Part shown: one piece after another, positions 28,951-63,967 of the stretch
Position numbering within the stretch: the first letter of the stretch is position 1
How the letters are laid out: each line of letters begins with the position of its first letter
Origin: Owenia fusiformis
Lineage: Eukaryota; Annelida; Polychaeta; Sabellida; Oweniidae
DNA length: 64,000 nt
Assembly: GCA_903813345.2 (NCBI GenBank)
Contig: CAIIXF020000012.1
Span: 24,254,184-24,318,183 of the forward strand
Direction: 5' to 3'
Translations under genes and position numbers: made by a program
The notes under the pieces: generated by a model
What the model was told of the DNA's origin: nothing
What the model saw: the letters and a program-made list of their open reading frames with translations, nothing else
The model's database searches: none

Positions 28951-30262
28951 CTACAAAGTGATGGATGCACCTTCTTCGCAAGCCGAATTTTTAGGATACG
29001 CATGTGATGTTATCCACTTTTTAATGTTCAACACACCCCTGCGACAATCCATAATAATTCTTGGTACGTCCAGGACAACGACTCCCACCAATAGTACGAT
29101 AACTGCAGTTATCGGCGGTATTCCTATCACAGCGGCGAGCTTGGCTTCCTCCGCCTTGAATTCTATTCTTTTAGCTGGTTTGTACGCTTTTTCCTTCATT
29201 TCCTGTTGTGCAGTTGGAATAGGTGGTGTAGTTGAGGATTTGAGCAGAGGTGTCGTCGGTATGGCAGTTGTATGTGGCGTTGTATCTGCATTAGATGATT
29301 CACTCGTTATGGACGCAGATGTTGATCCCGATGAACTACTTTCAGATGTTGAACTTGGTGCAAATGTTGAACTTGAAGAGCTCGGTTCAGCTGAGATTGA
29401 TACAGATGTTGAAGTTGAGGTTGGTGCAGATGTTGAAGTTGATGGTGCAGTTGTTGAAGTTGAGGTCGCCAAAGTTGTTGAAGTTGAGGCTGTTGCAGAT
29501 GTTGAAGTTGAGGTCACTACGGATGTTGAAGTCGAGATTGGCGCAGTTGTTGAAAATGATGTTGGTGCAGATGTTGAAGTTGAGCTCGCTGCAGTTGCTG
29601 AAGTTGAGGTTGGTGCAGTTGTTGAAGTTGAAGTCGCCAAAGTTGTTGAAGTTGAGGCTGTTGCAGATGTTGAAGTTGAGGTCGCTATGGATGTTGAAGT
29701 CGAGATTGGCGCAGTTGTTGAAGTTGATGTTGGTGCAGATGTTGAAGTTGAGCTCGCTGCAGTTGCTGAAGTTGAGGTTGGTGCAGTTGTTGAAGTTGAA
29801 GTCGCCAAAGTTGTTGAAGTTGAGGTTGGTGCAGATGTTGAAGTTGAGGTCGCTATGGATGTTGAAGTCGAGATTGGCGCAGTTGTTGAAGTTGATGTTG
29901 GTGCAGATGTTGAAGTTGAGCTCGCTGCAGTTGCTGAAGTTGAGGTTGGTGCAGTTGTTGAAGTTGAAGTCGCCAAAGTTGTTGAAGTTGAGGTTGGTGC
30001 AGATGTTGAAGTTGAGGTCGCTATGGGTGTTGAAGTTGAGGTTGGCGCAGTTGTTGAAGTTGATGTTGCTACAGTTGTTGAAATTGAGGTTGGTGCAGAT
30101 GTTGAAGTTGAGGTCGAAACAGATGTTGTTGTTGTCACTGGTGGTTTCTTGTCACATCCAAAGTATCTTACAGTATCATCACATCCTATGGATTTCCAAA
30201 GTCCACCCGGTATCATAGCGACACAGCGACCATCACCTGCATTCGGTTGGCTTGTGTCCCAA
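28951..30262 (-). CDS. Last exon: lectin C-terminus, Ser/Thr stalk, membrane segment
   Basis: The acceptor TTTCAG precedes 30262. Four of the expected lectin-domain features (QPN, GDGRCV, GGLW, two further Cys) fall in the first 45 residues. The stalk at about 29390-30130 is coded by near-perfect ACTTCAACN-type repeats, with longer units recurring (roughly 100-180 nt blocks). The long plus-strand frame over the same bases (VEVEVGADVEVEV) is the antisense shadow of this repeat. Confidence 0.85.
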
Positions 30263-33200
30263 CTGAAAGAATGTGTACCATTAAAGAATAATGCACGTAA
30301 CCCAACAACTAAAGTCACAAAGGTCAATAAAACATATTCACGGTGTACAATCAAATCGAAAACACAGCTTCAGACAGCGACTTGCGTTAATCGAAACGAG
30401 GCTACAAAGCAAAATTGATTGACAGGTATCAGCTAATGCAAATCAATGTAACTTTGAATTAGCTTTCCAATGATATATCACACCATATCATATATTTTGG
30501 TTTTGGCTGTAGAGGGGGGAGCGGGACACCCTTTCGTTAAAATCACGATAGCTTCAAGAGCGAGATAATACAAATAGACTAAAATATCGATATTACATGA
30601 CTAAAAAGGATTGATGGATCTTTTGATTTGATTAGCAATTGATGAGTTTGGGGTACTGTAGAAGATGAATGAGATGGTGCGTGGCTATTGCATGATTTAC
30701 GTCTCTTTTTAAATAAAGTGATGGTCTGGAGGATCATTTTCTTCTCCTGAAACAATAAGAACACGAATATAGTATACACTATCTGACATTTTGTCTACGA
30801 TCTGCAGCCGAACTGCGTTAATGCCATTGCCAATAGAAGCTGCGCATTGCGTTATACCACTGAGAATGCACTTCGAATCTAATGTTCTCCTTATGAACAT
30901 ATTCTATTATCACATAATTCTCACAAATTTTCAATCAAGCTATGGATATTCAGAAACTCGTTGAGAATCTTCAAATGTATGGTAAAGTTGAATTATGCAC
31001 AGGTTTTTAAGTAAAATCAAATGCATGCTACTGTTTCAACTTAAAATGGACAACTGCTTATTTTCTTATCAGTATATGAAGAATGGATTACTGAGTAATC
31101 TCTTCGTCACGGCATACACTAAGAGGCATTTAAAAAACCTGAATTTCTCAGTTTCACCGCGGTGAAAAATGATGCGAGTCGCAGTCCTCGGCTGTGTCTT
31201 TGATTTGGTTATCCATCTTGATATTGAACACTTATAAAGCATTTTATAAATAATTTATTTTTAGGTCAATTTTGATATTTTGGTAAATAGGTCTAATGTT
31301 TTAAGGTATGAGTACCGTAATCCAACACCAAATTCGAAAATTCATAACAATACTTTGCACATATGGCGTTCGTGACCAACTATAAAACGCTTACCCCCCA
31401 TAGTGTTATATATCAAAATGTACCTGTTCATATAGGGGTTCGATTGATCTACATCAAATTATAGGGAGTCAGGTTACTTTTTGAGATATCAGCGTCCATT
31501 TATTGTGACTCGCGTTTGCTACCACTTCCTCAATTCTGATATGATGGGCAAACGCGTAATAAACATGCTCACGTCGGAACTATTTTTGACCTACATCGCT
31601 ATTTTCGTAATTCAAATGAAAGTTGAACTCCTCCTCTTTATTTTGATACCAAATAGTGGCATACTAGGTACCCTAGAAGCCAACTATGGCGTTATTTAGA
31701 ACAAAACCACAAGTTTTTAAATGGACTATATAGGGGTCATACCTTTTGGCGGATGGATATGGAACCTCATACCTTAATGTGTTATGACATCACACTGATT
31801 TTTGTCTCTGCAACTTTTTTTGGCAGAAAATATCATTTCTAGTTCAAAAATGCATAAAAACGTCGGAACTGGCTGAATATGTGAAAAATTTATCCATTTA
31901 GGCTAGAAAGGGTTAATTTGCCCTACCCCAAATACGTCTAAATATGCTGGTCTAACTTTGCCACTGTGACGTCACAAATCTAACCTGACTATCTCTGAGT
32001 TTATTGAAGAAAATGATACGTCTGACAAACAGCTTTCATTCCCTATATGGCACACCTTCTACTAAGAGTTGCATCATTGACTAAATCTAAGACAAAGGGC
32101 CTGTGTCCCGAGGATTTTGACTGAAATTTGGCCATTTTCGCCCAAATCTAACTAAATTGCAGTTTCCCTGACACCTGTATTTTGAAATAAATATTGCTAC
32201 AATGTAGCAATTTGAAAATCACACATGCTTACTGTTTCTGTCGACCTGACACGTGTATCTAGCCTGTAAAAATGAAAAATCGCTACATTGTAGCAATTTC
32301 ACTGAGATATGGGCCCTGAAAATCATGTAATTTTAGCAAAAAATGAAGAAATAACCTGCAATTTTGACGGAATTTCAGAGGGCTTTCTTTCATTCCAGAC
32401 CCTCCACGGGCCTCTTATGACCATTCTTATACTCACAGAATGGTTGAAAGTGATTTCAAATCATTGTTTGCCCTACGCAGAACGAAAAAATCGATTCTGT
32501 TCTCAAAATCTGCTAGAATATTGGTCTCTGGCCAACTAGCAGACAATTTTAGGCCTCATATTAAGGTATGAGTACCGTAATCCAACACCAAATTCGAAAA
32601 TTCATAACAATACTTTGCACATATGGCGTTCGTGACCAACTATAAAACGCTTACCCCCCATAGTGTTATATATCAAAATGTACCTGTTCATATAGGGGTT
32701 CGATTGATCTACATCAAATTATAGGGAGTCAGGTTACTTTTTGAGATATCAGCGTCCATTTATTGTGACTCGCGTTTGCTACCACTTCCTCAATTCTGAT
32801 ATGATGGGCAAACGCGTAATAAACATGCTCACGTCGGAACTATTTTTGACCTACATCGCTATTTTCGTAATTCAAATGAAAGTTGAACTCCTCCTCTTTA
32901 TTTTGATACCAAATAGTGGCATACTAGGTACCCTAGAAGCCAACTATGGCGTTATTTAGAACAAAACCACAAGTTTTTAAATGGACTATATAGGGGTCAT
33001 ACCTTTTGGCGGATGGATATGGAACCTCATACCTTAATGATGATATTTAAAATACAGTTTTGCCCAGGGGTACATCCTTCTTTAACATCCGGCTTACTTT
33101 GGTCGTCATGGATAACTTACTATGTGGCCGTTAGGGGAGATCCGTCATAATACGTCCACGTAGCGTCATCGAACGTCGTGACACCAATGTCAAACAGATT

Positions 33201-47600: not shown

Positions 47601-50600
47601 TTTCTCAAACCTATTGATCTGGAATGTGGAACCAACATTACTTAGATTAGGTAGTTTCCAGTTTCGCCACCAGGTACCCTGCGTGCAGAGTCTAGTTAAA
47701 CTGAAGACGTAAATTTTTTCGAAACAAATGCGTGATATATATACATATTTTGTACAAAATGCGTGACATAAACGGCAATCGCTTGCAAAGACCGAACGGA
47801 ATGCGTTCGTTTTTTTTCACCGTTCGGTATTTTACCGTATCAGCATTTCACAAAAAATGCTTTTTAAAAATATCGACAAAATGCGTGATTTGCGTGATAT
47901 TTGATCATACACGCTAAATTAATGTGTGATTTCTATTTTTCCAGCAAATGCGTGACAATCACGCCTAATGCGTGAGGGTTGACAGGGCAGTTGATAAACT
48001 CTTAAAAGCCCCATTCACAGATGTTCTTTTACATGTAGATTCCAAATATGACATCAGTTTGACTGAATTTTTAATGATGTAAATCAAAATTATTTCTACT
48101 CACATCTAGTCTATTAGAGACGGATTTCTTTTCCATGTAAATTTAACACAGTTACAGTCAGAGAGTCAGCACAATGGGGAATTTTAGGGTACAATAAGTC
48201 TTCTTTAATTCTTTTTTAAACATATATTCAACCTGCTGGTGGCTTGAGATTCCGTATACCATATTTCCTCTTATACCATATACCATATTTTTTACACCTC
48301 TTATACCATATACGTTAAATTTTGTCCCCTCTTATACAATATACAATAAATTTTCACCCTCTTATACGATATACAATACATGTATTTCTATACACCCCCC
48401 CCCCTTTAATTGCAATGAAAGTTTCTGTTGTGGTGATTAACCAAAATATCAAAGAGGCCTAAGTTAAGCTTTAATGTCTTCTTTAAGAACCCCTATTATT
48501 ACTATTGTAAATGGACTCTACCAATGCTCTCCCACATGAATCTACTTGTTGTCTATTCAACGTAGATTCATGTGGAATAGTATTGATAGAATCCTTTTCA
48601 ATAGTAAAGATAGGGATTCTAAGACAGGACATTGGACTTGCTTTTTAGAACTTTTTGTTGGCTCTCTAAAAAGCACTTTTTAATTTCCAGTTACCTTTCG
48701 TTTTATCAAATCAAAGTATCGTATTTCTGAAATTTTGTGATAGATAGATGGCAGCCTGGCTTAGGTTGCCATCTATTGACAGTTACCATTGACAACAAGA
48801 CCTACCTATATGGTATGGTAGAGACATCTTTCTCAGTTTCTTCAAAGTGCTCCAACTTTTTGCCCTTAAGTTCAGGCATTTTTGGTAGTTTTAACAACGC
48901 ATAGCCCCTTGCTAACTTGGCTATATCAATATCTGAAAATTGCAATCAGCGATTAATCTACGTTCATAAACTTCATATTTTTTTCTTAAAAACAGCCAAA
49001 TCCTAAACTTCTGAACCTTTTACTCCAGGTTGGTAGAAAATAATAATGCTATTTATTTCTGACGATGTTCCAACACATCAATAGTTAAGTATTAGATTGT
49101 TAAAGGCAGAATTAAATCATATGAACAATTTTAAATCTATTTTACCAATATATGTCAAGATATCTCAATATTCTATCGATTTGACAGAATGGCATGTAAT
49201 TTTCAAATTTTCGTCATGGTTCAGTTGCTTCAATGCAAGAATGATCATTAAACTATCTTAGTTAGAAAACCATGGTGACATAAAAACTGAATTAGCTATA
49301 ATAAAATTAAATACCTTCATCTATTTTGAAAAAACAACATGAACTGCAATCTTACCTTTTAACCTAAATATGAGACTGCATTCATGTTTGGCATAGGACT
49401 GAACAGAAGAGACAAATGCTTTGATACCTGACTCATAGATGGCTCTGAAATCATATGATATATATAGAATTACAGATTGCTTTGATACCTGACTCATTAA
49501 TGGCTCTGGAATCATAAGTTATCTCGAATCAAATATTAGAGAGATTTCGCACATAAGTGAAAGTACAACTTATACGTATACTTTAAAGGGTCATGTTGAA
49601 CTATTATATTTCCTAAAATCAATTTCAAATTGTACTTAATGGAACATAACTATTCCCGATATAGAAAAGCTCCATCAACTAGAGACTGTGAATGCACTGT
49701 CATCTGCACGTGTAGATTATGCACATTATAATTAAATGCTTGCTTCCGTGTTCTAGTAGTTGTAGCGTATTATAAACACGATCCTTTAAAGTGAATCATG
49801 ATCCTTAAAAGTGAGTCATTACATAAACAAGTTGATTATTTCAAAGTTTTCATGCTCAGTATAAGTTCAATGAACTTACAAAACGGTATAAATACGTAGA
49901 TGATAAACATATACAGTTGGATCTCCGTATAAAGCTTTACCTACATGTGCATGGAACAATTGACCGCAAATATTTTTTAAAATTAATTGGCTGAGTAGGA
50001 ACAGTATCTAATCAAATACTTTAACCATCGATTTGAAACACCAATCAAACCAGTAGGTTCTAGCAATTCCTGGAAACGACCCATTCATTAGCTCAACCAG
50101 AACAACGGCAACGCCAAAGCATAGCGAATCCCATCGAACAGAAATGGCTGGCGTTTTTAAAAACGAAGCGCAAATATCATAAAACAACGCACCAGAAAGG
50201 CCACCATTTTCAAAATGGTTGTTCACTAGCCAAGTTGTCATCAGAAGAAATAATATGCTTTTAAGTAGCCACCTCTAAAATTTTTGAAAAATCACACACA
50301 TACTTGTAAACACAGATAAAACACACATAAAAATGGTGGCCATTTTTCAAAATGGCCGACTACTCCCCAAAGTTTTATTAGACAATGTGCCATGCTTAAA
50401 GTATTCACATATCAAATATGAACAAAATGGCTCCACTATTGTTCGAGTTATAGTAAAATACATTAAAATGGCGGCCATTTTTCAAAATGGCCACCTTCTC
50501 CCAAAAGCGTCATTAGAAATAGACAGTGTGCCATGCTTATGGTATTCACATACCAAATATGAACAAAATCGCTACACTACACTTCGAGTTAAAGTGAAAT

Positions 50601-53600
50601 ACGTTAAAATGGCGGCCATTTTTCAAAATTTTTTTCAAAATGGCTGCCTTCTACCAAAAGTGTCATAGGACAGTGTGCCATGCTAATAGTATTCACATAC
50701 CAAATATGAACAAAATCGCTCCACTACTTTTCGAGTTATAGCAAAATATGTTAAAATGGCGGCCATTTTACAAAAATTTTTTCAAAATGGCCGCCTTCTA
50801 CCAAAAGTGTCATAGGACAGTGTGCCATGCTTATAGTATTCACATACCAAATATGAACAAAATCGCTCCACTACTTTTCGAGTTATAGTAAAATACGTTA
50901 AAATGGCGGCCATTTTTCAAAATGGCCGCCTTCTTCCAAAAGTGTCTTTAGACAGTGTGCACTGCTTATAGTATTCACATACCAAATATGAACAAAATCG
51001 CTCCACTATTTTTTGAGTTACAGCAAAAATCGTAAAATGACGAGTAAAGGTGGCCATTTTTCAAGATGGCTGCCATGTGCTTCTTTAATATCTACATTTG
51101 TAGCATTATTAATGTCCTTTATAATTTTTTTACATTTAAAACATATTGCTATTACAGTTTTACATATTGCACCTAAATTACTGTAAAATCGTCACTAAAA
51201 TGGCCACCATTTTGAAATGAGTGGCCATTTTGAAAATCGGCTTTCGAGCAGAACTTCTACCCCCATAGGGTATATGTGTACAAAATATGAACAAAATCGG
51301 GCCAACGGTATTTGAGTTATTGCCCGGACGGACGGACAGACGGACGGACGGACGTACGTACGGACGGACGGACGGAGGTGTTCCCTATATCCCTCCGAAC
51401 TCCCTCCGAACTTCGTTCGATGGGATAACAAATGACATACAGGGTGTTTCATAACGAGCATCTCCAAAAAGTCAATTTGAGAAGAGATGGGTCTATAACA
51501 TATGTACTATATATGAGGCTGTTTTATTCTAGACAAACACATTTGGATCAACTAAACATGCTACAATTCAAGAAAGTACAAATGGCATCCCTTTGACCTT
51601 TATTTATTACAGTCCGAGAAGATCTTTCCTGACGAAAATCCAACATTATGAAACACCTTGTACATTTATTTATAAGTATACGTTATAAGTTGTACTTTAT
51701 GTATGTGCGAAATCTCTCTATTGATGATACAAATGCACTGATACAAGCCATATAGATGGCCCTGGAATCAAAAGTTATCTAGAATCAAAGATTGATGATA
51801 TAAATGCTTTGATACAAGCCATATAGATGGCCCTGGAATCAAAAGTTATCTAGAATCAAAGATTGATGATATAAATGCTTTGATACAAGCCATATAGATG
51901 GCCCTGGAATCAAAAGTTATCTAGAATCAAAGATTGATGATACAAATGCACTGATACAAGCCATATAGATGGCTCTGGAATCAAAAGTTATCTAGAATCA
52001 AAGATTGATGATATAAATGCTTTGATACAAGCCATATAGATGGCCCTGGAATCAAAAGTTATCTAGAATCAAAGATTGATGATACAAATGCACTGGTACA
52101 AGCCATATAGATGGCCCTGGAATCAAAAGTTATCTAGAATCAAAGATTGATGATACAAATGCACTGGTACAAGCCATATAGATGGCCCTGGAATCAAAAG
52201 TTATCTAGAATCAAAGATTGATGATACAAGCCATATAGATGGCTCTGGAATCCTATTATATAAACAGAAACACAGATTGCTTTGATACCAGCCTTACAGA
52301 TGGTACTTGAATAACAGACTATATTTTGAAGATAAATATACAGTTGGTGTTTGAAAAGATCTTTTATTTTTGTAACTTGTTTCTCACCTGTCCTTCAATG
52401 CCATGTGCTTCAACTTGTGTATATATTCCTGTTGTGGGGCTGGGGGTGAAAGTCTCTTCATAGGGACCTATAGATGAGATAACAAGGCATTAACATGACA
52501 ACCTCTCAAGTTGTAGTAAGGTATGGTATGGTAGAAAGAATAACGAGGAATTATTTGGACCACTTACCAAGTTAGGATATGGTGTGGTATGAAATAATAG
52601 GGCATGAACCTGACTTCTCAAGTTATAATATGGCATGGTGTGGTTTGGTATGATATCGGTATGGTATACTATAATATACTGTATGGCGTGGTATGGTACA
52701 AAAATAGCAAGGCAAGTGACTACTTCTCAAATTATTGCACGCTGTGGTATGGTATGGCATAACTAGAAAAACAGGAACTCCACAAAGAAGCAGATTCCAC
52801 CAAACAAAATATATCTCATCAAATCCCTCTTCATCATGAACATTTCATGATGCAAATAACCAGGTAGTAGTACTGGCTTCTTTTGGCAAAATCGACATAA
52901 ATGACATTATTAGAGACTCCTTCTTTGGTAGAGGCCAGATACCAAGAATTCATGTTTCATTCATCATAATACAAAAAATGTGACAAAATTGAAAGTGTAA
53001 TTTTACTTTCGACATTCTGACACTCCTGTTATTGAAGCATGTCTATCAATTTTTTTCTCTATAACTCTATTACAATATTTTACTTTAACCTTTATGAACT
53101 GTAAAATATACAGTATTTGCCAGTTTGAGAGCCAGACTCACAAATTACAACCTAATAGTAGTGGTTAAATGGCACAAAATGCTGAAATTATTCTGGGTAT
53201 GCTTGATATCTGCAGAATCATTAGGTAATATGTAAAAAGTAGCAATCTCACTGGCATGCACTATCCTTGTCCCAGATTATTTACTAATGTATTATTTATG
53301 GGAAATAATTAATTAATATTGTGCATTAGTTTACATTGTCTCTATTTTCTGAATATTTTCATCCGTCTTTAGAATCTTATATATCAAGTATTTTCTATCA
53401 TGTTTACTTACATGATGTTTACATTTTTCATCTTTGTTTGGCACCATATTGACATTTATAGTTCCAAAGCGCACCTGGCATTTGTTTCAATGTCAACTTA
53501 GATTTTTGGAGTTCAAGTGTCTGCAATTTTACTCAAGTCACAATCGTAAGCATTTTGAAAAGTCATTTTGTAAGCAGTGCCTTAAAATGCATATTATTGA

Positions 53601-56600
53601 GTGACTACAGATGGTAAGACATAAGTTTGTGTCAACTGTAAAAATTAGGGTGTCTTTAATGGAGATTATTTGACAACCATGTGTCAAACCATTTGGGTAG
53701 TAGGTAAATAATAATCTGTGTATAAAAGTACAAAATTAGCATAAAATTGTATGTGAAAAAGGTCAAGATACCCTAGTAACAAGATGACACGAGGTGCCTA
53801 GATATTATAAGTAGAATATAAATAACCTAAGAACAAGATTAGATTTTGCATAGTTTTTCCTGTACTTTATTCACTTTTTAAATTGTACAATAATTACCAT
53901 TATATTATACATAATACTAGAGGCTGAGAACTACCTGCATCAATACATTCTTGCACCTAGCATACTGTAAAAGCTCAAATTTTTAAGGTGCCCTAATTTT
54001 TTGCTGATGAGCTAGACAGTAAAATTAAAGACACAGTGAATATTTGATTTAACATTGAACTCATTTAGTTATTTCTTAAATTTTTAATACCCATGAAACA
54101 TTTTAGATTGACAAAATATTGCAATTTATTGTCAGTGGAAATTCGGGCTTTTACAGTACTTAAATTGGGTAAAGGTATATTGAATTTTACAAGCATGAGT
54201 TCTGCCTGAGAATAAATTCTGCCAGTAAAACTTGATTTGTGTGAACTATAATCCTATATAGTGAGAATGTAGAGTTAGATGTTGTCCCTCTCCCTTGAAA
54301 ACATTCTCGTATCAGATCTTTCTTCAATGGATTCACCAAAGAAAACAGTCATTAAGCTACCACATCAGATCTCAACAAACATACAGGTTATGTCAAAACA
54401 TAATTATGAAAAGGGTTAATTGTAATTTTTTCTTATATACTTTTCAATTCAGGCAGATTGTTAGAATTTCTTAGTGTAATGTAGTTCAATTCTACAACTT
54501 GCATAGCTTTGGCAAGACATCTGGGAAATTCTTGCACATAAATGATGTTGCCTTTGTAGTACTTGCCATAAAATCAACTATTTTAGGACCAGTTATATTA
54601 CGACTATCTACAACATTTTCTTCAGTAGTCGAAATTCCCATGTTTTTAAGCACAGTTTTTGACACCTGTAGGTCCTCACAGCATCCAATAGTGCTACTCA
54701 CAGTAGCAACCACATTAGGATCTTTAGAATCTTGCCTAGGTTGGACTCCTTTATTGTCTGCCTTCACTGCTTCTATATAATAGCAAGTATAATAGACATA
54801 TAAATATGAATCACTAAAATTAATGAATCAACCCTCAAAGAATGCAAAAATCTAAACAACGATAATTTTATACATGTTTGGGATTTTCATATTGGTACGA
54901 ACAAATGTTACTTGTTGTGCTTGTGCAGAAATAGATAAATATAATTTTAAGTTACCTCTTGTAAATATGAACAAGAATGCAGCAGCTCCTATCAACAACA
55001 TGATCACAACAGTAATTATTATCAAAATGATCAAGTTGCGATATTTTCTTCTTTTCAACCAATTTGTTGGAGGTTTTTTCTTACGATTGTCTTGTACATT
55101 TTCACAAGTCACGTACGAATACAGTGGTTCAGTAACTGATCCATTCCTCTGGTTACCTTCACTTTCAAATTGTTCATTCCATTGCTGCTGTCCAAGATAC
55201 TGTTGCTGATCATCTGAATGATGTAGTCCTGTTTCTCTTATTACTGCATAGCGACTATGTACAGGTACGAGATATCCATCAAGGTCAATTGGATCATACT
55301 GCCCATAAACTGGCATTAAGTCATTATTTTCATTAATATGGTTATTATTTTCATCTTGCTCACCAGGCATTATGAGCTTCCATATGCATGAGGCATATTT
55401 TTGCATATATTTCTCCCCATATCAATGTCGCAGAAGTGAGAAACGAAACTGAAGATTTCTTTAAAACATACACACATGTGCTATTTCTTGTAAGTTCTAT
55501 TCTTAGGTTATTCATTTAAAAGGTCAAGTTAACTCAAGATACTTCAAAAGAGATATCTCAAAAGGTACACAATATCTTGTAATAATTCAACTAAAGGAAG
55601 GTCGGGTTGCCCTAGATAAAGTAATTTTTATTGGTTGATAAGATTTATTTAAGCATGCACTCCTACTTTAAATATTGCTGTTTGCACTTTATGAATAGAT
55701 CAAATCTAAAACCTGTCGCTTTTTATATGGCACATTATATCCTTTTATGGATTATAGGAGTGTTTTTTCATGATTTAACAAAACGAAACAGAAACATTTT
55801 TAAAAATACATAGATGACTAGAAAGTATGACTGGAAAGCTTGTTCCGGGTATTGAACCATTTGTTCATACCATAAATGGTATCTCCAATTGGACAGACTT
55901 TTTCCCAAGATATTGAGACCAAAACTTTAAGAAAAAACATGAATGACAAGGCTACTATCAAAATCCCACCAGAACTGACTGATTGCTCATCTTAAGTAAT
56001 CCAGACAAAATCCCACTGTAAAATACAAAGCTGGCCATACAAGTCTCTCTTTGATCAAAGTACGAGGGATGATCCAAAAGTCTTGGATGCCCTTTCCAAT
56101 AATTAAGACCAACGATGATAAAGTGAAATATTTTATGTAGTTTTTAGATAGTTTTTAATATAGCGACCCTGTCACCCAGAACAGTATTCAAACATGGCAA
56201 CTTTCAGCCTTAAATGTTGCCGCCATTTGACTTGTTTCCCTAGTCTTGAACATTATCTTTCTTTGAATTTTGAATGTTAAACCATGTTAGTTTTAGTTCC
56301 TTTGTTACCAGGCAACCAATTAATTGTGTTTTAATTATGATGTAACATGTGACAATGGCCACATATGTCGAATTCTAAGAAAAAGACAGACAAGCAAGCT
56401 TCAATCAATTTGGTATCATTTTTGCTCCAAGATGGCTGCTGAAATGCAGAACAAGCAAGAAATCAGAGTGAAACAAATAATACTACAAGATATTCTGACT
56501 ATCATTGACCTTGAGCAGCTACCACATGCATCCTACAGTCTAGATATGGCTCTGTGTGATTTTTTCCTTTTCCCCAAGTTGAAAGGAGGGTTGAAAGGAA

Positions 56601-59600
56601 GGTTTTTTACTCATTGGATGAGGTTTAGAGTGGCACTCCAGGAGCATTTGTATCACCTAAACAAGGGCGGTTTTATAAATGTCTCCCATTCATGGGTAAA
56701 GTGGTACGAAAAATGTGTTCAAATTTGTGGAAAATATTGTTAAAAATGTGGGCCTTAATGTGTGAAGATAAATAATTGTGACGTGATTTGTGTTTTTAAA
56801 TACTAGTACAACTCCGAGTGACAGGGTCCCCATATTAAAGATATCAAGAATAGTACCAAAAATAAATTATTTTCTGGTGAAACTGATACATAAAGTTGTT
56901 AAGATGTTGATCTTTATCTGAAAGTTTCTTGTAATTATATCAAAAAATAATGGGACGTCCAAGACTTTTGGATCACCCCTCTTATACATATAATCTTTGT
57001 AATATCATTTTATTCATTTTATTTTACTTTATACAATATCTAATATAGCATATCATAAACATCATTTTTGACAAATGTATTTTCTAAATGTGCATCTAAA
57101 TGTGCATACTTAGTAAAGTACTATTTTATTCCTAAATTGAACAATTTAGTTTGAGCTGTCCAATTCTTGAACTTATGACCTATGTTTCTATGGCTACCAC
57201 ATCCTTTCCTTACTCTCTAATACTGTGTATAAGAGCAAGCAAAATGTGTAATCTTGTTGATTAGATCTTGACAATCTAAAGCAGGCACAATTTTGGGAGG
57301 ACATCTGGGAAAAGTCTACACATAACTGATGTGGTCTTAGTGGCATTTTTTTCTCTGTTTTTCATCCATGAATCGTCAACCAAATAACTATATCCATGTG
57401 TGGAACTGTTCAAGGTTTTATTTCTGTAGTTATGGATCTTAGATGATTTCAGATCATGATTTTTGGTCATCTCATCAGAGTTGTCCACTTCATGTGTTAA
57501 GACAGAAAGTTTCGGGATTTGTACTGGAAAAAAAGAATTTAATTAAGATAAGGCTGGCTACAAAAGTAATAAATGAAATATTTTTTATTTCTATTAATAG
57601 TTACATTGAATTGTAAATCTTCTAATAATTTGATCTCTTTCATAAAATGTAAGAATAATATAAATGTACCTGTCGATCCTGTGACCAATAAGGCGACGCC
57701 TGCTGCTAAGGCCAAAATTATGGTGATGACAACAAAGCAAATACATATTTGCACTTTACGGCTTTTCATTTTATCTGGACCATTGTTGTGAGTTTTTGTT
57801 TCCAATTCAAACTGCTCAATATGTCCATCTCTTCTTGTGTCTGACTGGTCAATCAGAACATGTCTTTCATCACCAGGTGCGGTCACATGTTTATCTGTGT
57901 TTTCTTCATGACTTATGTTCTTACGATTCTTGTTATTGTTCAACATTTTGAGAGAGCAATAATATTAATGTTCTTTTACATCAAGCCACTACATATACAA
58001 GCCACTCTGCATTTAGTTACTATTTATGACCCCTTTATCAATAAAATATGATGCAAGTTTTTCTAAAAGGTAAATATTACTCAACTGATAAGTAATTCAA
58101 ATATTCTGACTGGTTGGCACTTCTCTCTTAAAAGCTTTTAACATTTAACAAGTAGAAGTGGTCGATAAAAACTGGAGAAGTGCCTATTGTTGTAATGTAA
58201 AACGAAACTGAGTTAACATGACCTCATAAGTCTTATTAAGTGAAATACTTTAAAAGGATTCAAAACGAAACTAAGTTGAAAAATGATTCATATTGTCAGA
58301 AAGAATATTAACAAAATGTACACATATTTATTAAAGTTTATAGTTTTGATTTTCATTATTTTTATAACTGACTGTTATTCAAAAGAGATTAATGGCAGAT
58401 GTTTTTAAAAAAATAGCAAAAATTAACAAGAACATAAAATCAACGTGTCACCTTGTTACACACAATGTAAAGGATTGGTATCGATATGGAGAACTGAATT
58501 CAACAATGTTTTTCTCTTAAACCAATCATTGAAAATATTCTGTAAAAAACATGGTATTTTATGAAATGTTGACTGATTGACAACAATTTATTGCGAAAAT
58601 TATTTAGAAATGTTTTATATGACTGTTTTTGTTAACATTTTTTTTTAGTGCAATTGTTTTGCTCCTTTCTACCAATTCTTGAGAATGAAATAAAATGTCT
58701 TTCCGAACCTTGTTGAAACTAAATAACATAACATGTTTTAAGACCTCTCAATATTATATTTATACAAAGGAATTTTTGGTTGACTTTAAAAAAGTATTCA
58801 AAAAATTAAAACAAAATCCCCCAAAAATAGATAAAAATCAAGATAAACCTTTTATTTCATGAACAAGATACTTTTTTAAAATCAACCAAAATTTCCTCTG
58901 TACAGTTACAATATTGAGAGACCTAAACATGTTGTGTTTATGTCGTTTTGTTCCAATGAGATTCGGAAAGATGTTTCATTTCACTCTGGAAACCTGATAC
59001 CAAGAACAAAACAAGTGTTTGATGTGTTTTCTAAAACAATATAGATGAACATAATATTTATACAGGGTGTCCGAAAGTAAAGATACAAATACTCTAATTC
59101 TAAGAGATTTAGGTTTCTTGTATTGAAATTGCTCCAGATTGTAGAGGAACTTTATGACAATATGTCTACCAACTTTCATCCCATAACATCTAAATGTGTT
59201 AAAGTTATGGTTGTCATGGTTACAGTGGTGAGGGGTATGCAGAGCAGTTCCAGGATATCCCTTATATGTGATAAATTGCTAAAATATGACCATTTGAAAC
59301 AGTGTTTATTATTGTATTTTCTATCAATGTTTTTGTTTTCTTCAATATTGTATTCTTGTTGCCATAGTGTTCTCTTTAAGATAATGATATCATTGATACA
59401 TAGCAGAACTATGTAATGTCACTAACCAGTATAATTAAAGAAGATTATAAAATCTTAAAATTGAATGTCTTGACATCAAACCTTTTTGCACAATGGCCCA
59501 TATTCCCCTGATAATGCCCCGTTAGATTTCTACATTAATGCATATCTGAAAGCAATATTTGTTAGAAGTTTAACACAAACAATGAGACTCTGCTGGAAGC

Positions 59601-62600
59601 TAATGCTATCAGCAATCTGAGAGATGGACAGCAGCGGTTTTGGCAGGTCTTTGAATATATGGTCAAGATACACCACGAATGATTAGATAATGGTGGGAAA
59701 TACATAATACTGGATAACAGCAGTAATGTCAAATGACCACAGTACTAACCCTTATGCTGTTGTGGTGCATAATTTAATGTATAATAGGAACAGACGATGG
59801 AGTGCCAAGATGATATGAGCAGGAAAGGTAATTATAAAACACAATTGTGACGCTGCTCCACATACCCCCGGCCCCGACTCATGTTACCATAATGACCATA
59901 ACCTATTCATTTTGAAACTATATGTCATGACAGTTGCAGGATAAATTGTTACAATGTCATCCTACAATCTGTAGCAATTTCATCTCACAACAGGTAAATC
60001 TATTGAAATTAGAGCACTTGTATCTTTACTTTCCGGACACCGTGTATATATTTTTCGAAATATATTTAAAAGATGACCATTAAATTGATCACAGGCTGGT
60101 ATCGAAAGATTTGTCCGCTGTGACGGAGCATGCTATTTTTCATAAAAACACTGAGAATGCTTCACGATTTATTTTTTAACTCATATGTTTCGTTATATCA
60201 AATAAAATGACTTACTCCATGCAATGGATATATCATTTGCGGGTAACAGTCACTTCTGTTTGAAGTCCAATAATGCTAGGAGTAAAAGCTATTGAAAACG
60301 GCGCCAGAGTATCAAACTCTATACCCTGCGTGCAGAGTCTAGTTAAACTACACTCTGCCTAGCAGAGACCATATTACAGTTTAGTAGCCCCGCCCCCACG
60401 ATGGATACCGGTGACAGTTTGGGTAATTAATCACTTTTGACCTACATGCTGACCTTTCTTCCACCAATCAGCGAGCTTGAAGAAACATACGCCAAATGTA
60501 TTCTAATTAAATATACGCATGTCATTGGTCAATTCCGGGCTCAACGATGACATCAGAACGAATGACCATATATAGAACGTCGGTCAAATTTGGCCGACGA
60601 ACACTGGTTGGCGCGGTGAGTTCACAGGTTTATTTTAGTTTGAAAGAGTGAAGACGAAGCTCTTTTTTAAGAAGTGAAGTCAAACGAATGCAAAGGGTAC
60701 AAACTCTAAAATGTACCATTTCTTTTTTAACTTTTTAATGGCATGATATTGTGACACGATAATATTAACATATGTTTTCAGCATAACTCTGAATGTATTA
60801 ATGAGATATTAATGCATTGGGTCTTTTTAATCCTACTTCTTCAGAAATAAAATTATATTTGAATCAAACTGAAATAATTAATTATTACATAACAATGAGA
60901 CAAATAGCAACCGTTACTATAGAAAACTTCATTGATGTTACAATTAAATAGAGCTGTTATGTAATAATTAATTATTTCAGTTTGATTCAAATATAATTTT
61001 ATTTCTGAAGAAGTAGGATGGACATCCTACGAAACGTCAAAAAGAAAAAATAAATATCTCTGAGAAAGAAAATCAACAACTTTGTACATTACAACCAGAG
61101 AGATGAACATTCATAGAAGCAATATTAATATTTTTTGTCCGCTGTGACGGAGCATTTTCACAGTTCACATTTGCAACTGCTCCGTCACAGCAGACAGAAA
61201 AATTAAAATTAAAAATTATTTTTTATAAAAGAATTAAAAAGACCAAATACATCAACATCTCATCTATACCTTCTTAGTTATGGTGAAACCATGTGTAAAT
61301 ATTATTGTGTTACTATATCGTGCCAATAGAAAGTTAAACAAGAAATGGTACATTTTGAAGATTGATCCTCCGGCGCCATTTTCAATAGCTTTTCTTCCCA
61401 GCATAATTGAACTTCAAATAGAAGTGAAAGTTACCCGCAAATGATATATCCATTGCATGGAGTAAGTAATTTTCTATGGTGTAACGAAACATATGAGTTA
61501 AAAAATAAATCGTGAAGTATTCTTAGTGTTCTTATGAAAAATAGCATGCTCCGTCACAGCTGACAAATATTTCGATACCAGCCCGTGTTGATGATGTGTT
61601 AAATTTTTAGATTTTTTATGACTGGTTTAAGAGAAATGTGTGTTCAAAGAGTTCTCCATATCGATACCACTCCTTTAAGATCGGGACAACAACTTAGTTA
61701 AAAATTTAATGATGATGATGAGTATTCAAAACTAATAACCTAGATGTGAGTAGGTAGTAACCAGTTTCACTATCAGGTGGCTAATTCGGGTCAGATAACA
61801 TGGCAGGTATATTAGAAACTTTTAACTTGAACATTCATCAGTTCTAGTGGATCAACTTTCATATTACCCTTATGTATCTGATAGTTACACAAATTAAAAT
61901 ATGTCCATTAAAAGAAAATATTGTTAGTCCAATACATGAAAAGATATTTTACTTTTTGTGATTTTATAACATGAGGTCTATGGGGACCAAATAAGTCACA
62001 TTTTCAAAGAAGATTTAAATTTTCAAAGTTGATAATCACTTTTTTTAAACCACATTTCTAGATATAATTTCACATGTAGATTTCAAATATGATAACTTTA
62101 AATTTTTAATGATGTAAATCAAGATTATTTCTACTCGCATCTAGTCAATTCAATGATAATTTACTGCCATTGTAACAAATATTTTGCTTTTACTGATAAT
62201 AAGTTTCGACACCATTTAAAAGAAAATAGCCTACATGTATGTGTCAAAAACAATAAATATAATTGCTAATAATTAACTAAGTGATATTAAGTACTTCACG
62301 TGGCTCATTATACCCTTGCAAAAACAGTGCTGGTTGAATTGTATTTCTTTTTAAAAATGTTTTTATATGTGTGAATATGATATAAACCATGACCAGAATG
62401 GATTGAAGTTGATTAAAGAATTGTTTCTTATGTTTATCTCAGGCTTAAATCTGCAATTTTGGCCAGGGGGGGAGATTTCCAAAAGATAACCTTTCATTAA
62501 GTTTGGATCGAGTAACTTTAATAGTATTACTGTAGATTTAAAATGATGATATTGAACTGATGTTAACGCCATTTCCACAATTTCAAATTTTATTTTGCGG

Positions 62601-63967
62601 ATGCGCAACTCTGAGAGAGCACGTGCTCATGTTTGTTCACGTGATCGCATCCCGCAATTTGATTGGAGATGATGCGGGAGATGACGTAATGGGGAATCCC
62701 CGAATACGATAGAATATGAAAGAATTATGGGAGCTACTCACTTCTTCTGAATTTTGGCTATATTTCCAAAATGATGTGAAGTTGCCAGGGTAATGTATAA
62801 TGCTCAAAACAAAATCTGAAAAACTTCTGAATAGAAGCAACTCTCCCCCCCCCCTCCCAATAGAATGCTGCTTACCTTCTGATTTAGTGCGATGAACTCA
62901 ACATAGCTGTCCTCACTAGGCAGTAGGAACAGAAGAGCATTTCCCGATCTCCCGAGTCTTGCAGTTCGGCCACATCTATGTACAAATGCATTCGCTGAGC
63001 TTGGAGGGTCGTACTGTAGAACCCAGTTGACTTCTGGGATATCAACTCCTCTGGCCATGACATCAGTGCAGATAAGAATACCACTTATGAAAATAAATAG
63101 AATCTTACAATAAATATATTTTACACTATGATGGGTTTCTCATGGTGTTAAAGTGGAACATTTCAGTGTGAACCATAACATTGTTTTGCAAACTTTTGTA
63201 CAATATCACATTGAATAGCCAGTTTACTCATTCTTTTAACCATGCTTACCTAACAAAATTATGTTATGAGCTACAAGCACAACATGCATTTAAGAACATG
63301 GTACACTGACACCATACTAACATGGTACATTGACACCATACTAACATGGTACATTGACACCATACTAACATGGTACATTGACACCATACTTAATAATTTA
63401 ACTCAGATCTTTAATTGGCATCAAACAGAAGTGAAAGTTACACAGAAAAGATATGCAGTATTATAAGTAGTGGAACCTTTTAAAAGTTCCACTTGGGAGG
63501 TGTTCCACTTGCAGATGTTCATTTAACAATAGGTTAATAGGTTGGGGGACTTTGAAAAATGTTCCACTTATGGAGATGTTCCACTTATAGAGGTGTTCCA
63601 CTTTACAGGGTTTACTGTATATTGTATAATATAGCATCTGAGTAAAAGTAAATTGTGAGGCCTTTTTGCACTTTTATAAGAAATATAGTTTTCACCTCAA
63701 AAGTGGACAAATGTTCCATTAACATCTTGTGTATCAAATAAACACCTTATTCATCCATGGTCAATGATTGAAATAATCTATTCATGTGTGTGCTAGTTCT
63801 TCAAACATTTCCTATTATTTAATAATAAAACAATATTGTGAGCAAATACTGTTTGCATACAAGTATAATGTACATACCTTTGTAAACTTCTAAATGCTGC
63901 AAATATTTTGTTCCTTTTTTCTTTCATTTTCCCATGTATACACAACACCTCTGTGTTTTTCAGTAAA
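44422..63967 (-). CDS. DDX55: DDX55 (Spb4-type) ATP-dependent RNA helicase, C-terminal half
   Basis: Exons in transcript order: 63878-63967, 62876-63083, 52388-52467, 49356-49444, 48806-48932, 45116-45209, 44422-44628. They total 895 nt, one leading base plus 298 codons, phases all consistent. The first exon found gives [19 protein letters not shown]. The second carries helicase motif V ([17 protein letters not shown]) and motif VI ([11 protein letters not shown]). Then come the DDX55/Spb4-specific C-terminal region ([45 protein letters not shown]), a KMREKQRQ segment and a Lys/Glu-rich tail ending [14 protein letters not shown]. Known DDX55/Spb4 proteins act in the nucleolus in large ribosomal subunit assembly. 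About half the usual ~600 residues are here; the N-terminal RecA domain lies right of the window. Introns range from 0.4 to 10.4 kb. The 10.4-kb intron holds two other genes on the same strand. Confidence 0.96.
44687..44879. repeat. Short inverted repeat (GCCTCAGTCAC ends) in a DDX55 intron
   Basis: Left TGAATAATAATGCCTCAGTCAC and right GTGACTGAGGCTTTAATATTCA are inverse of each other. Inner ACGGCGGTCGTAGCTTC / GAAGCTACATCTGCCGC also pair. MITE-like. Confidence 0.75.
46235..46770. repeat. Tandem repeat, ~150-bp unit, about four copies
   Basis: The unit contains AAACAAAGGACTTCACAAAC, TTCATGTATAGATAATTCAG and GTAAAGGCAAAATGGGACTT. The second copy is truncated. In the DDX55 intron between 45209 and 48806. 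Confidence 0.85.
46915..47346. mobile_element. ~430-bp TIR element (AAAGGACCACGG ends)
   Basis: Left AAAGGACCACGGACGG...CATATGTTGGATTTT and GTTAGGCCAATGCATTAAC are inverted on the right as GTTAATGCATTGGCCTAAC and AAAATCCAACATATGACAG...CCGTGGTCCTTT. No coding capacity. Confidence 0.82.
47675..47985. mobile_element. Diverged relative of the TACCCTGCGTGCAGAGTC MITE
   Basis: The left 30 bp match the MITE family, but the right GCAAAGGGTA end is not found. Instead an ATGCGTGA motif recurs about six times up to 47975. It sits in a fragment of the GTTTCGCCACCAGG dispersed repeat also seen near 19300 and 61770. Confidence 0.6.
48245..48385. repeat. Degenerate CTCTTATACCATATAC tandem repeat
   Basis: About five units of 25-40 bp, each with a CTCTTATAC(C/A/G)ATATAC core. 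No other content. Confidence 0.75.
48480..48625. repeat. Hairpin-forming inverted repeat
   Basis: CACATGAATCTAC / GTAGATTCATGTG and outer AAGAACCCCTATTATTACTATTG / CAATAGTAAAGATAGGGATTCTAAG pair across a short loop. Confidence 0.75.
49417..49537 (-). repeat. DDX55 exon start plus first decayed copy of the exon-derived repeat
   Basis: On the minus strand the true exon begins GATTTCAG/AGCCATCTATGAGTCAGG. About 60 bp upstream a decayed copy reads GATTCCAG/AGCCATTAATGAGTCAGG...ATCAAAGCA. This is the proximal end of the array that continues at 51719-52330 beyond an inserted transposon. Confidence 0.8.
50333..51060. repeat. ~145-bp tandem repeat with AAAATGGCGGCCATTTT cores
   Basis: Cores begin near 50334, 50467, 50606, 50753 and 50900, with a last partial near 51050. 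Each unit continues CAGTGTGCCATGCTTATAGT, ATTCACATACCAAATATGAA, then a CTCCACTACTTTTCGAGTTA block. A related unit at 51195-51320 leads into a (CGGA)n run at 51328-51376. Confidence 0.88.
51440..51660. mobile_element. 221-bp MITE (CAGGGTGTTTCATAA ends)
   Basis: Left CAGGGTGTTTCATAACG and right CATTATGAAACACCTTG are inverted, flanked by TA. Nested inside the 49539-51718 element. Confidence 0.82.
51719..52330 (-). repeat. 71-bp minisatellite derived from the DDX55 acceptor/exon start
   Basis: Eight copies with the TATAGATGG mark at 51751, 51822, 51893, 51964, 52035, 52106, 52177 and 52233. Spacing is exactly 71 bp except the last at 56 bp, and a degenerate ninth lies near 52290. On the minus strand each unit reads TTTTGATTCCAG/GGCCATC, then TATATGGCTTGTATCAAAGC and ATTTATATCATC. 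That aligns with the real exon ([13 protein letters not shown]) as [13 protein letters not shown] and then reaches a stop (FDSR*). Confidence 0.9.
52500..52760. repeat. Degenerate GGTATGGTATGG simple-sequence region
   Basis: Imperfect runs of (A/T)GGTATGGTATG interspersed with AATAGGGCATGAAC-type units. In the 10.4-kb DDX55 intron, directly upstream of the 52388-52467 exon. Confidence 0.65.
54492..55406 (-). CDS. Type II membrane protein with tyrosine-motif cytoplasmic tail (nested gene A)
   Basis: Exons 54956-55406 and 54492-54772 give 243 residues; the intron is phase 1. The ATG at 55406 is used; a second ATG at 55370 (MPGEQDENN) is equally plausible. Residues about 25-100 are acidic/polar with tyrosines in short motifs ([26 protein letters not shown]), like phosphotyrosine docking sites. 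Then a basic run ([16 protein letters not shown]) and one hydrophobic segment ([20 protein letters not shown]) give N-in topology. The outside part has a CC pair, an NIT glycosylation site, and ends [17 protein letters not shown]. It lies wholly in a DDX55 intron on the same strand and shares architecture and tail with the gene at 57276-57946. No known family recognised; function unknown. Confidence 0.78.
55407..56062. other. Stretch between nested gene A and the mariner remnant
   Basis: It should hold the promoter of nested gene A (upstream of 55406). I see no clear TATA box or repeat, and the small plus-strand frame at 55631-55813 has no support. Confidence 0.4.
56063..56982 (+). mobile_element. 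Mariner-like element, internally deleted
   Basis: Ends CGAGGGATGATCCAAAAGTC / GACTTTTGGATCACCCCTC are inverted and flanked by TA. About 920 bp, shorter than a full mariner (about 1.3 kb). It carries the transposase remnant at 56324-56743. Confidence 0.88.
56324..56743 (+). pseudogene. Mariner transposase C-terminal remnant
   Basis: The frame includes [20 protein letters not shown] and then LKGRFF...W....[10 protein letters not shown]. This matches the mariner C-terminal catalytic block (LPHPPYSPDLAP-D-FFLFP pattern), with the conserved Pro residues changed. The N-terminal DNA-binding half and the first catalytic aspartates are missing or scrambled, so it is inactive. Confidence 0.85.
57276..57946 (-). 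CDS. Type II membrane protein (nested gene B), paralogue of nested gene A
   Basis: Exons 57670-57946 and 57276-57523 give 174 residues with a phase-1 intron just after the membrane segment, exactly as in gene A. The cytoplasmic part is polar and His/Asp/Glu-rich without the tyrosine motifs. A basic PDKMKSRK precedes the single hydrophobic segment ([21 protein letters not shown]). The outside part has several N-glycosylation sequons (NKT, NSS, NAT) and ends [17 protein letters not shown] then TAG. The shared tail, shared intron position and phase, and adjacency argue for tandem duplication. Family unknown. Confidence 0.78.
57947..58690. other. Upstream flank of nested gene B
   Basis: AT-rich, no repeat of note, no frame worth listing. 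It must contain the promoter of nested gene B unless that transcript starts from elsewhere. Confidence 0.4.
58690..58980. mobile_element. ~290-bp palindromic MITE
   Basis: Left TCTTTCCGAACCTTGTTG...GACCTCTCAATATT...TTGGTTGACTTTAAAAAAGTAT pairs with the right ATACTTTTTTAAAATCAACCAA...AATATTGAGAGACC...GATTCGGAAAGA. Confidence 0.85.
59063..60044. mobile_element. 982-bp TIR element (CAGGGTGTCCGAAAGTAAAG ends)
   Basis: Ends CAGGGTGTCCGAAAGTAAAG / CTTTACTTTCCGGACACCGTG with flanking TA; inner ATACAAATACTCTAATT / AATTAGAGCACTTGTAT also pair. The frame at 59123-59416 has no transposase motif. Confidence 0.87.
60085..61595. mobile_element. ~1.5-kb large inverted-repeat element with GTGACGGAGCA motifs
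   Basis: The left arm (60085-60318) and right arm (61370-61595) are inverted copies over about 220 bp. They include GGTATCGAAA, GTGACGGAGCATGCTATTTT, GCATGGAGTAAG and CGGCGCCATTTTCAATAGC. The centre holds another inverted pair (60826-60893 and 60956-61019: ATCCTACTTCTTCAGAAATA and its inverse) and a third GTGACGGAGCA / TGCTCCGTCAC pair near 61143-61190. A MITE (60322-60699) inserted just inside the left arm. A diverged arm fragment lies at 23996-24140. Confidence 0.8.
60322..60699. mobile_element. Full-length 378-bp Mutator-like MITE with promoter-like interior
   Basis: Ends TACCCTGCGTGCAGAGTC / AATGCAAAGGGTA, flanked by CAAACTCTA on both sides (60313-60321, 60700-60708), a 9-bp target duplication. 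The interior, absent from the short copies, holds GCCCCGCCCCCAC (GC box), CACCAATCAGCG and ATTGGTCAAT (two CCAAT boxes in opposite orientation), ATGACATCA (CRE-like) and CATATATAGAACG (TATA-like), in that order. Confidence 0.87.
61596..62875. other. DDX55 intron remainder, repeat fragments
   Basis: Fragments of two dispersed repeats are seen: GTAGTAACCAGTTTCACTAT.AGGTGGCTAATTCGGG (61750-61795) and ATTTTTAATGATGTAAATCAAGATTATTTCTACTC (62105-62140, also at 48070-48105). Nothing coding; the minus-strand frames at 62363-62840 lack support. Confidence 0.5.
62876..63083 (-). CDS. DDX55: DDX55 exon with helicase motifs V and VI
   Basis: The acceptor is TTTTCATAAG before 63083, and the donor AAG/GTAAGC is at 62875. 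The phase-2 entry completes the Ser codon of LQS-GIL. It contains TDVMARGVD and [13 protein letters not shown], the arginine-finger motif needed for ATP hydrolysis, and ends FIALNQK. Frames 62804-63058 on the same strand simply read on into the intron. Confidence 0.96.
63298..63391. repeat. 24-bp minisatellite (CATGGTACATTGACACCATACTAA)
   Basis: Four nearly identical 24-bp units in the short DDX55 intron between 63083 and 63878. Since 24 is divisible by three it reads as WYIDTILT repeats, a spurious frame. TTCCACTT-type degenerate repeats follow at 63475-63610. Confidence 0.85.

Follow-up and report, generated by a model that had tools for sequence, protein, structure and literature searches.

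A cysteine-bounded tail links two type II membrane-protein genes nested in a helicase intron of Owenia fusiformis to an expanded gene family

Genes A and B and their host intron

The stretch of Owenia fusiformis DNA analyzed here (64,000 nt, G000:C12:24254184-24318183; “the window”) contains two small genes, A and B, which lie inside one intron of a helicase gene, on the same (minus) strand as their host. Such a nested pair had been proposed from the letters of the window in the original prediction, and the pair is real: as read from the sequence of A and B, each gene has two exons, which are separated by a phase-1 intron just past a single membrane segment with the N-terminus inside (N-in), and both share a common ending, i.e., a tail of M-C-[KR] plus ten residues, followed by two further residues and a TAG stop codon. 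The N-in orientation is indicated by the net-positive flank before the membrane segment, where the 15 preceding residues carry a net charge of +7 in A and +3 in B. The two genes are laid out as follows:

55370-54492, minus: gene A, two exons
54956..55370, minus: gene A exon 1, cytoplasmic N-terminus and membrane segment (segment ~54963-55034)
55239..55286, minus: gene A double-tyrosine module
54773..54955, minus: gene A intron, phase 1, 183 nt
54492..54772, minus: gene A exon 2, stalk, tail and TAG stop
54501..54539, minus: gene A tail, 13 residues
57946-57276, minus: gene B, two exons
57670..57946, minus: gene B exon 1, tyrosine-free cytoplasmic N-terminus and membrane segment (~57683-57748)
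57524..57669, minus: gene B intron, phase 1, 146 nt
57276..57523, minus: gene B exon 2, stalk, tail and TAG stop
57285..57323, minus: gene B tail, 13 residues

The identity between A and B amounts to 0.85 over the 13 tail codons, compared to 0.21 in exon 1 and 0.22 in the stalk. Both genes use the codon TTC for the tail phenylalanine, which occurs at only 2 of 14 such positions across the family described below, and both have an aspartate following the tail proline; these shared features suggest that A and B are probably sister genes. Between them lies a relic, which we take to be mariner-like (window 56061-56984), with 32-nt terminal inverted repeats that are 88% complementary and 860 nt apart; a transposase-like reading frame inside it (56324-56743) is not recognized by Pfam.

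The identification of the host as an SPB4/DDX55-type helicase holds as well: the joined piece of its exons matches the Pfam families Helicase_C (2.3e-12) and CTE_SPB4 (8e-9), and its best matches in the PDB are ATP-dependent RNA helicase and SPB4 chains. Two of the exons were located by motifs and one by a search for compatible splice phases:

~63083-62877, minus: helicase exon, by motifs
52467-52388, minus: helicase exon, by splice-phase search
49444-49356, minus: helicase exon, by motifs
52468..62876, minus: helicase intron carrying A and B, 10.4 kb

DDX55 presumably contains a VLPKLK-like stretch, and the same exon reads YIHKLK here. That the tail might represent captured helicase coding sequence was ruled out, as it is intact at 23 places beyond the helicase intron. 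The nested site itself looks incidental, since the main cluster of related genes is 8.4 Mb distant.

An expanded family with a conserved putative ring and a tyrosine module

A and B are outposts of a family of small type II membrane proteins that has expanded and duplicates in tandem. Protein searches of the genome (498 Mb, 525 contigs) with the tail, and then with exon 1 for further members, place the family at 28 sites (loci labeled L below), a number that is a lower bound and from which a tail-less match at C6:38415286 was excluded. Besides A and B, 22 members are clustered at C12:15.70-15.94 Mb and four are dispersed:

C12:32.58 Mb: one member
C9:34.41 Mb: one member
C5:31.77 Mb: one member
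C1:48.16 Mb: one member

The C-x10-C spacing is intact at 25 of the 28 places. As 23 of these are places other than A and B, and as 19 other modeled genes have the same exon layout, a chance origin of the tail shared by A and B is excluded. The tail ends in a putative ring of 12 residues, with the consensus [ML]C-x-x-F-P-x-V-L-P-x-L-C. L025 is a relic with stops that has lost the first cysteine, L026 is a copy broken after MCKLF, and L027, whose exon 1 lies in L017, has a tail shortened to CKIFPNLC. The most divergent intact tails are those of L023 (CKISPHYKPKKC) and L028 (CKIHSHILPNTC), which are also the weakest matches (E 0.59 and 1.58) and whose membership is backed by the exon layout.

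This layout is uniform throughout the family. Gene models were tried for 22 members and built for 21 (L010 was dropped, having no ATG in frame with the membrane exon; L011b, L020b, L022, L025, L026 and L017/L027 are without a full model), and in all 21 a phase-1 boundary immediately follows the membrane segment. The same phase-1 donor is present in L017 and L026. Twenty models are spliced, with a GC-AG intron in L012a, while L012b consists of a single exon with a 24-bp in-frame GT..AG remnant at the former intron site (L012, minus strand, at 2742-2765 in the reverse complement), which looks like a shortened intron that has turned coding. The flank of up to 15 residues before the membrane segment is net positive in 21/21 models (+1 to +7), which argues for an N-in type II topology and agrees with the proposed placement of the tail, as the conserved unit, at the outer tip. 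The outer stalk comprises 53-111 residues, and the last cysteine is followed by 2-21 mostly polar residues without a hydrophobic end.

To compare selection on the tail with that on the stalk, the proportions of synonymous (pS) and nonsynonymous (pN) differences were determined over the 13 tail codons in 171 pairs of 19 genes, with L023 and L028 left out. The tail has a pS of 0.79 and a pN of 0.19 (pN/pS 0.24), and five of its residues (C, P, L, L, C) are the same in all 19 genes and are encoded by a mixture of synonymous codons. Stalk pN/pS is 0.99 and 0.98 in two stretches and 0.78 in the 11 codons directly preceding the tail, in an ungapped alignment in which misalignment inflates stalk pN. 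The tail is thus constrained (0.24), and the stalk next to it is not (0.98-0.99). Because synonymous change is near saturation, the identity of the tails does not stem from recent copying, and gene conversion was ruled out family-wide on the same grounds. In the stalk of the single pair L012c/L012d, the nonsynonymous rate even exceeds the synonymous rate (dN 0.49, dS 0.31).

However, the tail is not the only strongly conserved stretch, as had been claimed. The double-tyrosine block of gene A is a module, D-x-x-G-Y-x-x-[PA]-x(4)-Y-x-x-I, which is found in seven genes (A, L012a, L012d, L015, L017, L021, and L026) and is constrained in these paralogs, with a pN/pS of 0.44 versus 0.82 upstream and 1.05 downstream. 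A truncated version, DSDDYAVI, is found in L012c, and a Y-[ST]-Y motif ahead of the membrane occurs in five of the seven module genes and in L012c. B and most other members are devoid of the double-tyrosine module.

A fixed ring on a free stalk suggests that the ring makes contact with a partner that hardly changes, and such a partner would more likely be a self molecule than a pathogen. The earlier suggestion of a “tethered ligand or recognition loop” is supported in part: the different selection on loop and stalk is compatible with a recognition loop and does not tell ligand from receptor. Family members might be tethered ligands, with the ring as a membrane-held signal that is read by a receptor on a neighboring cell, and the module would then serve turnover or back-signaling. 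The fixed position of the ring at the far tip of a free stalk and the absence of the module from most members speak for this possibility, but the constraint on the module in seven paralogs suggests inward signaling, and ~25 genes with one ring are many for a single ligand; we consider it unlikely. Alternatively, the tail might act within the secretory pathway as an assembly or sorting signal, by pairing with a common subunit or by forming disulfide-linked dimers, without any recognition outside the cell. This would be compatible with the unconstrained stalk and with the retention of both sequence and spacing, including the two cysteines, at 25/28 places; however, a signal of this kind would not have to be placed at the very end of the protein, beyond a long stalk, which makes this explanation quite unlikely in our view.

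The claim that no described family has this tail stands as far as Pfam, the PDB, and the open literature in PMC are concerned. Among 16 exon-2 proteins, Pfam gave no convincing match (five families, each in 1/16 members, best E 0.017), and matches to exon 1 of A and B were all below the cut-off. A profile of the tail had 0 matches in the PDB at E 10, three 9-residue tails were absent from the PMC open literature, and nothing that resembles the family is among the entries listed for the topical literature. On the basis of these negative results, it was rejected that the tail belongs to a known domain. In viral contigs, 37 stretches fit the tail pattern, and zero of them are relatives. Family members may already be catalogued as uncharacterized proteins.

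The arrangement of an N-terminal hydrophobic segment, a spacer and a cysteine-bounded C-terminal peptide also raises the possibility of secreted-peptide precursors, from which the tail would be cut off to act as a hormone or as an antimicrobial peptide. Polychaetes do have genes of this type: in the BRICHOS precursors of arenicin, nicomicin and others, a cysteine peptide forms the C-terminal end. Nevertheless, a BRICHOS match is absent from the 16 exon-2 proteins in Pfam, the alignment contains no conserved dibasic or other cleavage site before the tail, and the ring is conserved between paralogs instead of being diversified, which renders such precursors very improbable.

Upstream sites and a proposed role in innate immunity

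The regions upstream of A and B contain sites that resemble the interferon-stimulated response element (ISRE), the target of interferon regulatory factors (IRFs):

55440..55450, plus: ISRE-type site GAAACGAAACT, upstream of A, 70 bp from its start
58199..58209, plus: ISRE-type site AAAACGAAACT, upstream of B
58262..58272, plus: ISRE-type site AAAACGAAACT, upstream of B

The exact AAACGAAACT occurs three times in the 64-kb window (expected 0.26), each time upstream of A or B. To extend the comparison, 24 upstream regions of the family were collected (11,094 bp; L020b, L022, L023, and L025 not included), four of which are shorter than 500 bp (L018 55, L011a 152, L026 443, and L019 444); the region of L012a ends at an in-frame residue that is not a confirmed methionine, and that of L010 at a methionine out of frame with the membrane exon. 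CGAAAC is found 27 times, in 15/24 regions, compared to a mean of 3.6 in shuffled sequences (largest 10 of 200) and 3 occurrences of the reversed motif, and its density is 2.43 per kb upstream versus 0.48 per kb in the remainder of the same loci. Regions upstream of 19 Toll-like genes of the same genome served as a control (20 fetched; L046 dropped, no ATG): here the density of CGAAAC is 0.21 per kb, and 2/19 genes have it, compared to 15/24 in the family (Fisher p 5.7e-4, a value that is too small because paralog upstream DNA shares descent, as are the other p-values for enrichment). AAACGAAA is present in 8/24 family regions versus 1/19 controls (p 0.03), and GAAANNGAAA and GAAACNGAAA each in 7/24 versus 1/19 (p 0.05). 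With the four closest relatives removed, CGAAAC remains in 12/20 genes at 1.97 per kb, and GAAACNGAAA drops to 3/20. The genome encodes IRF domain exons at C10:22.76, C10:24.67, and C3:17.69 Mb, with 8 matches above the cut-off. In human cells, ISRE reporters are activated by the IRFs of oyster (PMC5557890), which makes the use of ISRE-type sites by IRFs plausible in lophotrochozoans.

ISRE-type sites together with tandem growth point to innate immunity, and the tyrosine module in combination with IRF-type upstream sites favors an immune-regulated signaling receptor for those members that bear the module. Our preferred, albeit tentative, interpretation, to which we give a little less than an even chance, is that the family comprises IRF-inducible, receptor-like type II proteins of innate immunity, which contact one conserved partner with the ring and exist in signaling and non-signaling forms. 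Expression of the genes would be induced by IRF transcription factors in the course of an innate immune response; the two tail cysteines would close the 12-residue ring, and the stalk would hold it off the membrane, so that the ring could bind a single conserved partner common to the members. Module-bearing members (A and six others) might relay this contact via phosphotyrosine/SH2 signaling, and module-free members (B and most others) might compete for the same partner or act by another route.

Similar arrangements are known from vertebrates, where natural killer (NK) cell biology is characterized by clusters of type II receptors, some of which have tyrosine motifs and some of which do not. 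As in the NK receptor clusters of Ly49, NKG2, and NKR-P1, tandem genes encode type II proteins (22 places in the C12 cluster, inner flank positive in 21/21 models). NK members with an inhibitory motif and members without one also share one outer unit (PMC1193534). Unlike in NK receptors, the outer unit is a 12-residue ring, with no lectin match at E 1 for the 16 exon-2 proteins in Pfam, motif-less members lack a charged membrane residue in the 21 models, and no sequence kinship between the family and NK receptors was found. A bolder version, which we regard as rather unlikely, would see in the family an invertebrate counterpart of the NK receptor clusters under IRF control. The whole recognition unit would then have been reduced to a single disulfide ring of 12 residues, of one design across ~25 genes, and signaling and silent forms would compete for a single conserved self molecule or, in the manner of tetherin, for a membrane.

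The latter possibility relates to BST2/tetherin, which is a small type II protein under interferon-type regulation with tyrosine motifs near its N-terminus (PMC9570199). By analogy, family members might be IRF-induced proteins in which the sequence of the stalk is of little importance and the hydrophobic ring at the C-terminus makes contact with a second membrane, with a virion or with a raft. The type II topology and the free stalk fit this scenario, and so does gene A, as the consensus ISRE of the duck tetherin promoter consists of the same 11 bases as GAAACGAAACT (PMC12220609); in addition, some members have a Y-[ST]-Y-x-x motif close to the membrane that is reminiscent of the sequence YDYCRV in human BST2 (PMC9570199). 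The outer part of BST2 is a coiled coil, and the stalk of the family is poorly predicted and differs freely from paralog to paralog. On the other hand, the C-terminal glycosylphosphatidylinositol (GPI) signal is absent, with 2-21 mostly polar residues after the last cysteine and a conserved cysteine ring in its place, and the family counts ~28 places. No likeness in sequence to BST2 was found, with no search aimed at BST2 made. Conservation of the ring sequence would be unneeded for a mere anchor. We consider a tetherin-like function decidedly unlikely.

Several observations weigh against an IRF-inducible, receptor-like role. No charged residue was found within the membrane core of the 21 models, i.e., there is no charge of the adaptor type. 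Strict immunoreceptor tyrosine-based inhibitory motifs (ITIMs; consensus from PMC9570199) are present in A, L015, L016, and L021, but four observed versus 1.7 expected from shuffles is no significant enrichment (p 0.09), and N-glycosylation sequons are not enriched over shuffles either (p 0.08). The structure predicted from an alignment of exon 2 of A and B is poor, with a mean pLDDT of 49.7 and tail blocks at 72 and 66. Between the members of four close pairs (three among L008/L009/L019, plus L020a/L024), identity amounts to 0.77 in the tail and to 0.56-0.77 in the stalk; the tail thus hardly exceeds the stalk here, and its constraint becomes visible over long divergence and not between recent copies. 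The inflation of stalk pN by the ungapped alignment and the shared descent of the upstream regions, both mentioned above, belong here as well. Furthermore, the upstream motif was picked after it had been noticed beside A and B and was tested afterwards. If one mismatch is allowed, the window has three more occurrences of GAAACGAAACT, and the looser GAAANNGAAA occurs 16 times, only once upstream of A and never upstream of B, so that the window alone is thin evidence for ISRE sites. Across the family, AANNGAAAC shows a weak excess over the Toll-like control (14/24 versus 6/19, p 0.07).

To our knowledge, the targets of invertebrate IRFs are poorly known. With its ISRE-type upstream sites, its tandem expansion, its tyrosine module, and its one fixed ring, such a family would make the questions of IRF targets and of NK-like receptors testable, and a ring of 12 residues is small enough for synthesis, for use as bait, and for blocking.

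Neighboring and dispersed features

The genome contains at least 142 TIR-domain matches (among 150 scored of 178 candidates), e.g., at C7:1714509-1714874, many of which lie within open frames of 700-870 codons that resemble single-exon Toll-like genes. A weak TIR-like frame (L013:1663-2163; TIR_2, E 0.019, below the cut-off) is located on the same strand as, and directly upstream of, the family gene in L013. A partnership of the family cluster with TIR genes was considered and dropped: besides this weak frame, one TIR match barely above the cut-off was found, at C12:15760511.

Within the window, a dispersed repeat with several copies occurs at 50288-50665 and also beside the C5 family member (L023). 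In addition, a long open frame with threonine/serine repeats (window 28954-30369, minus) yielded no Pfam match at E 0.1 with a 53-residue piece, and its end resembles the last part of a C-type lectin domain.

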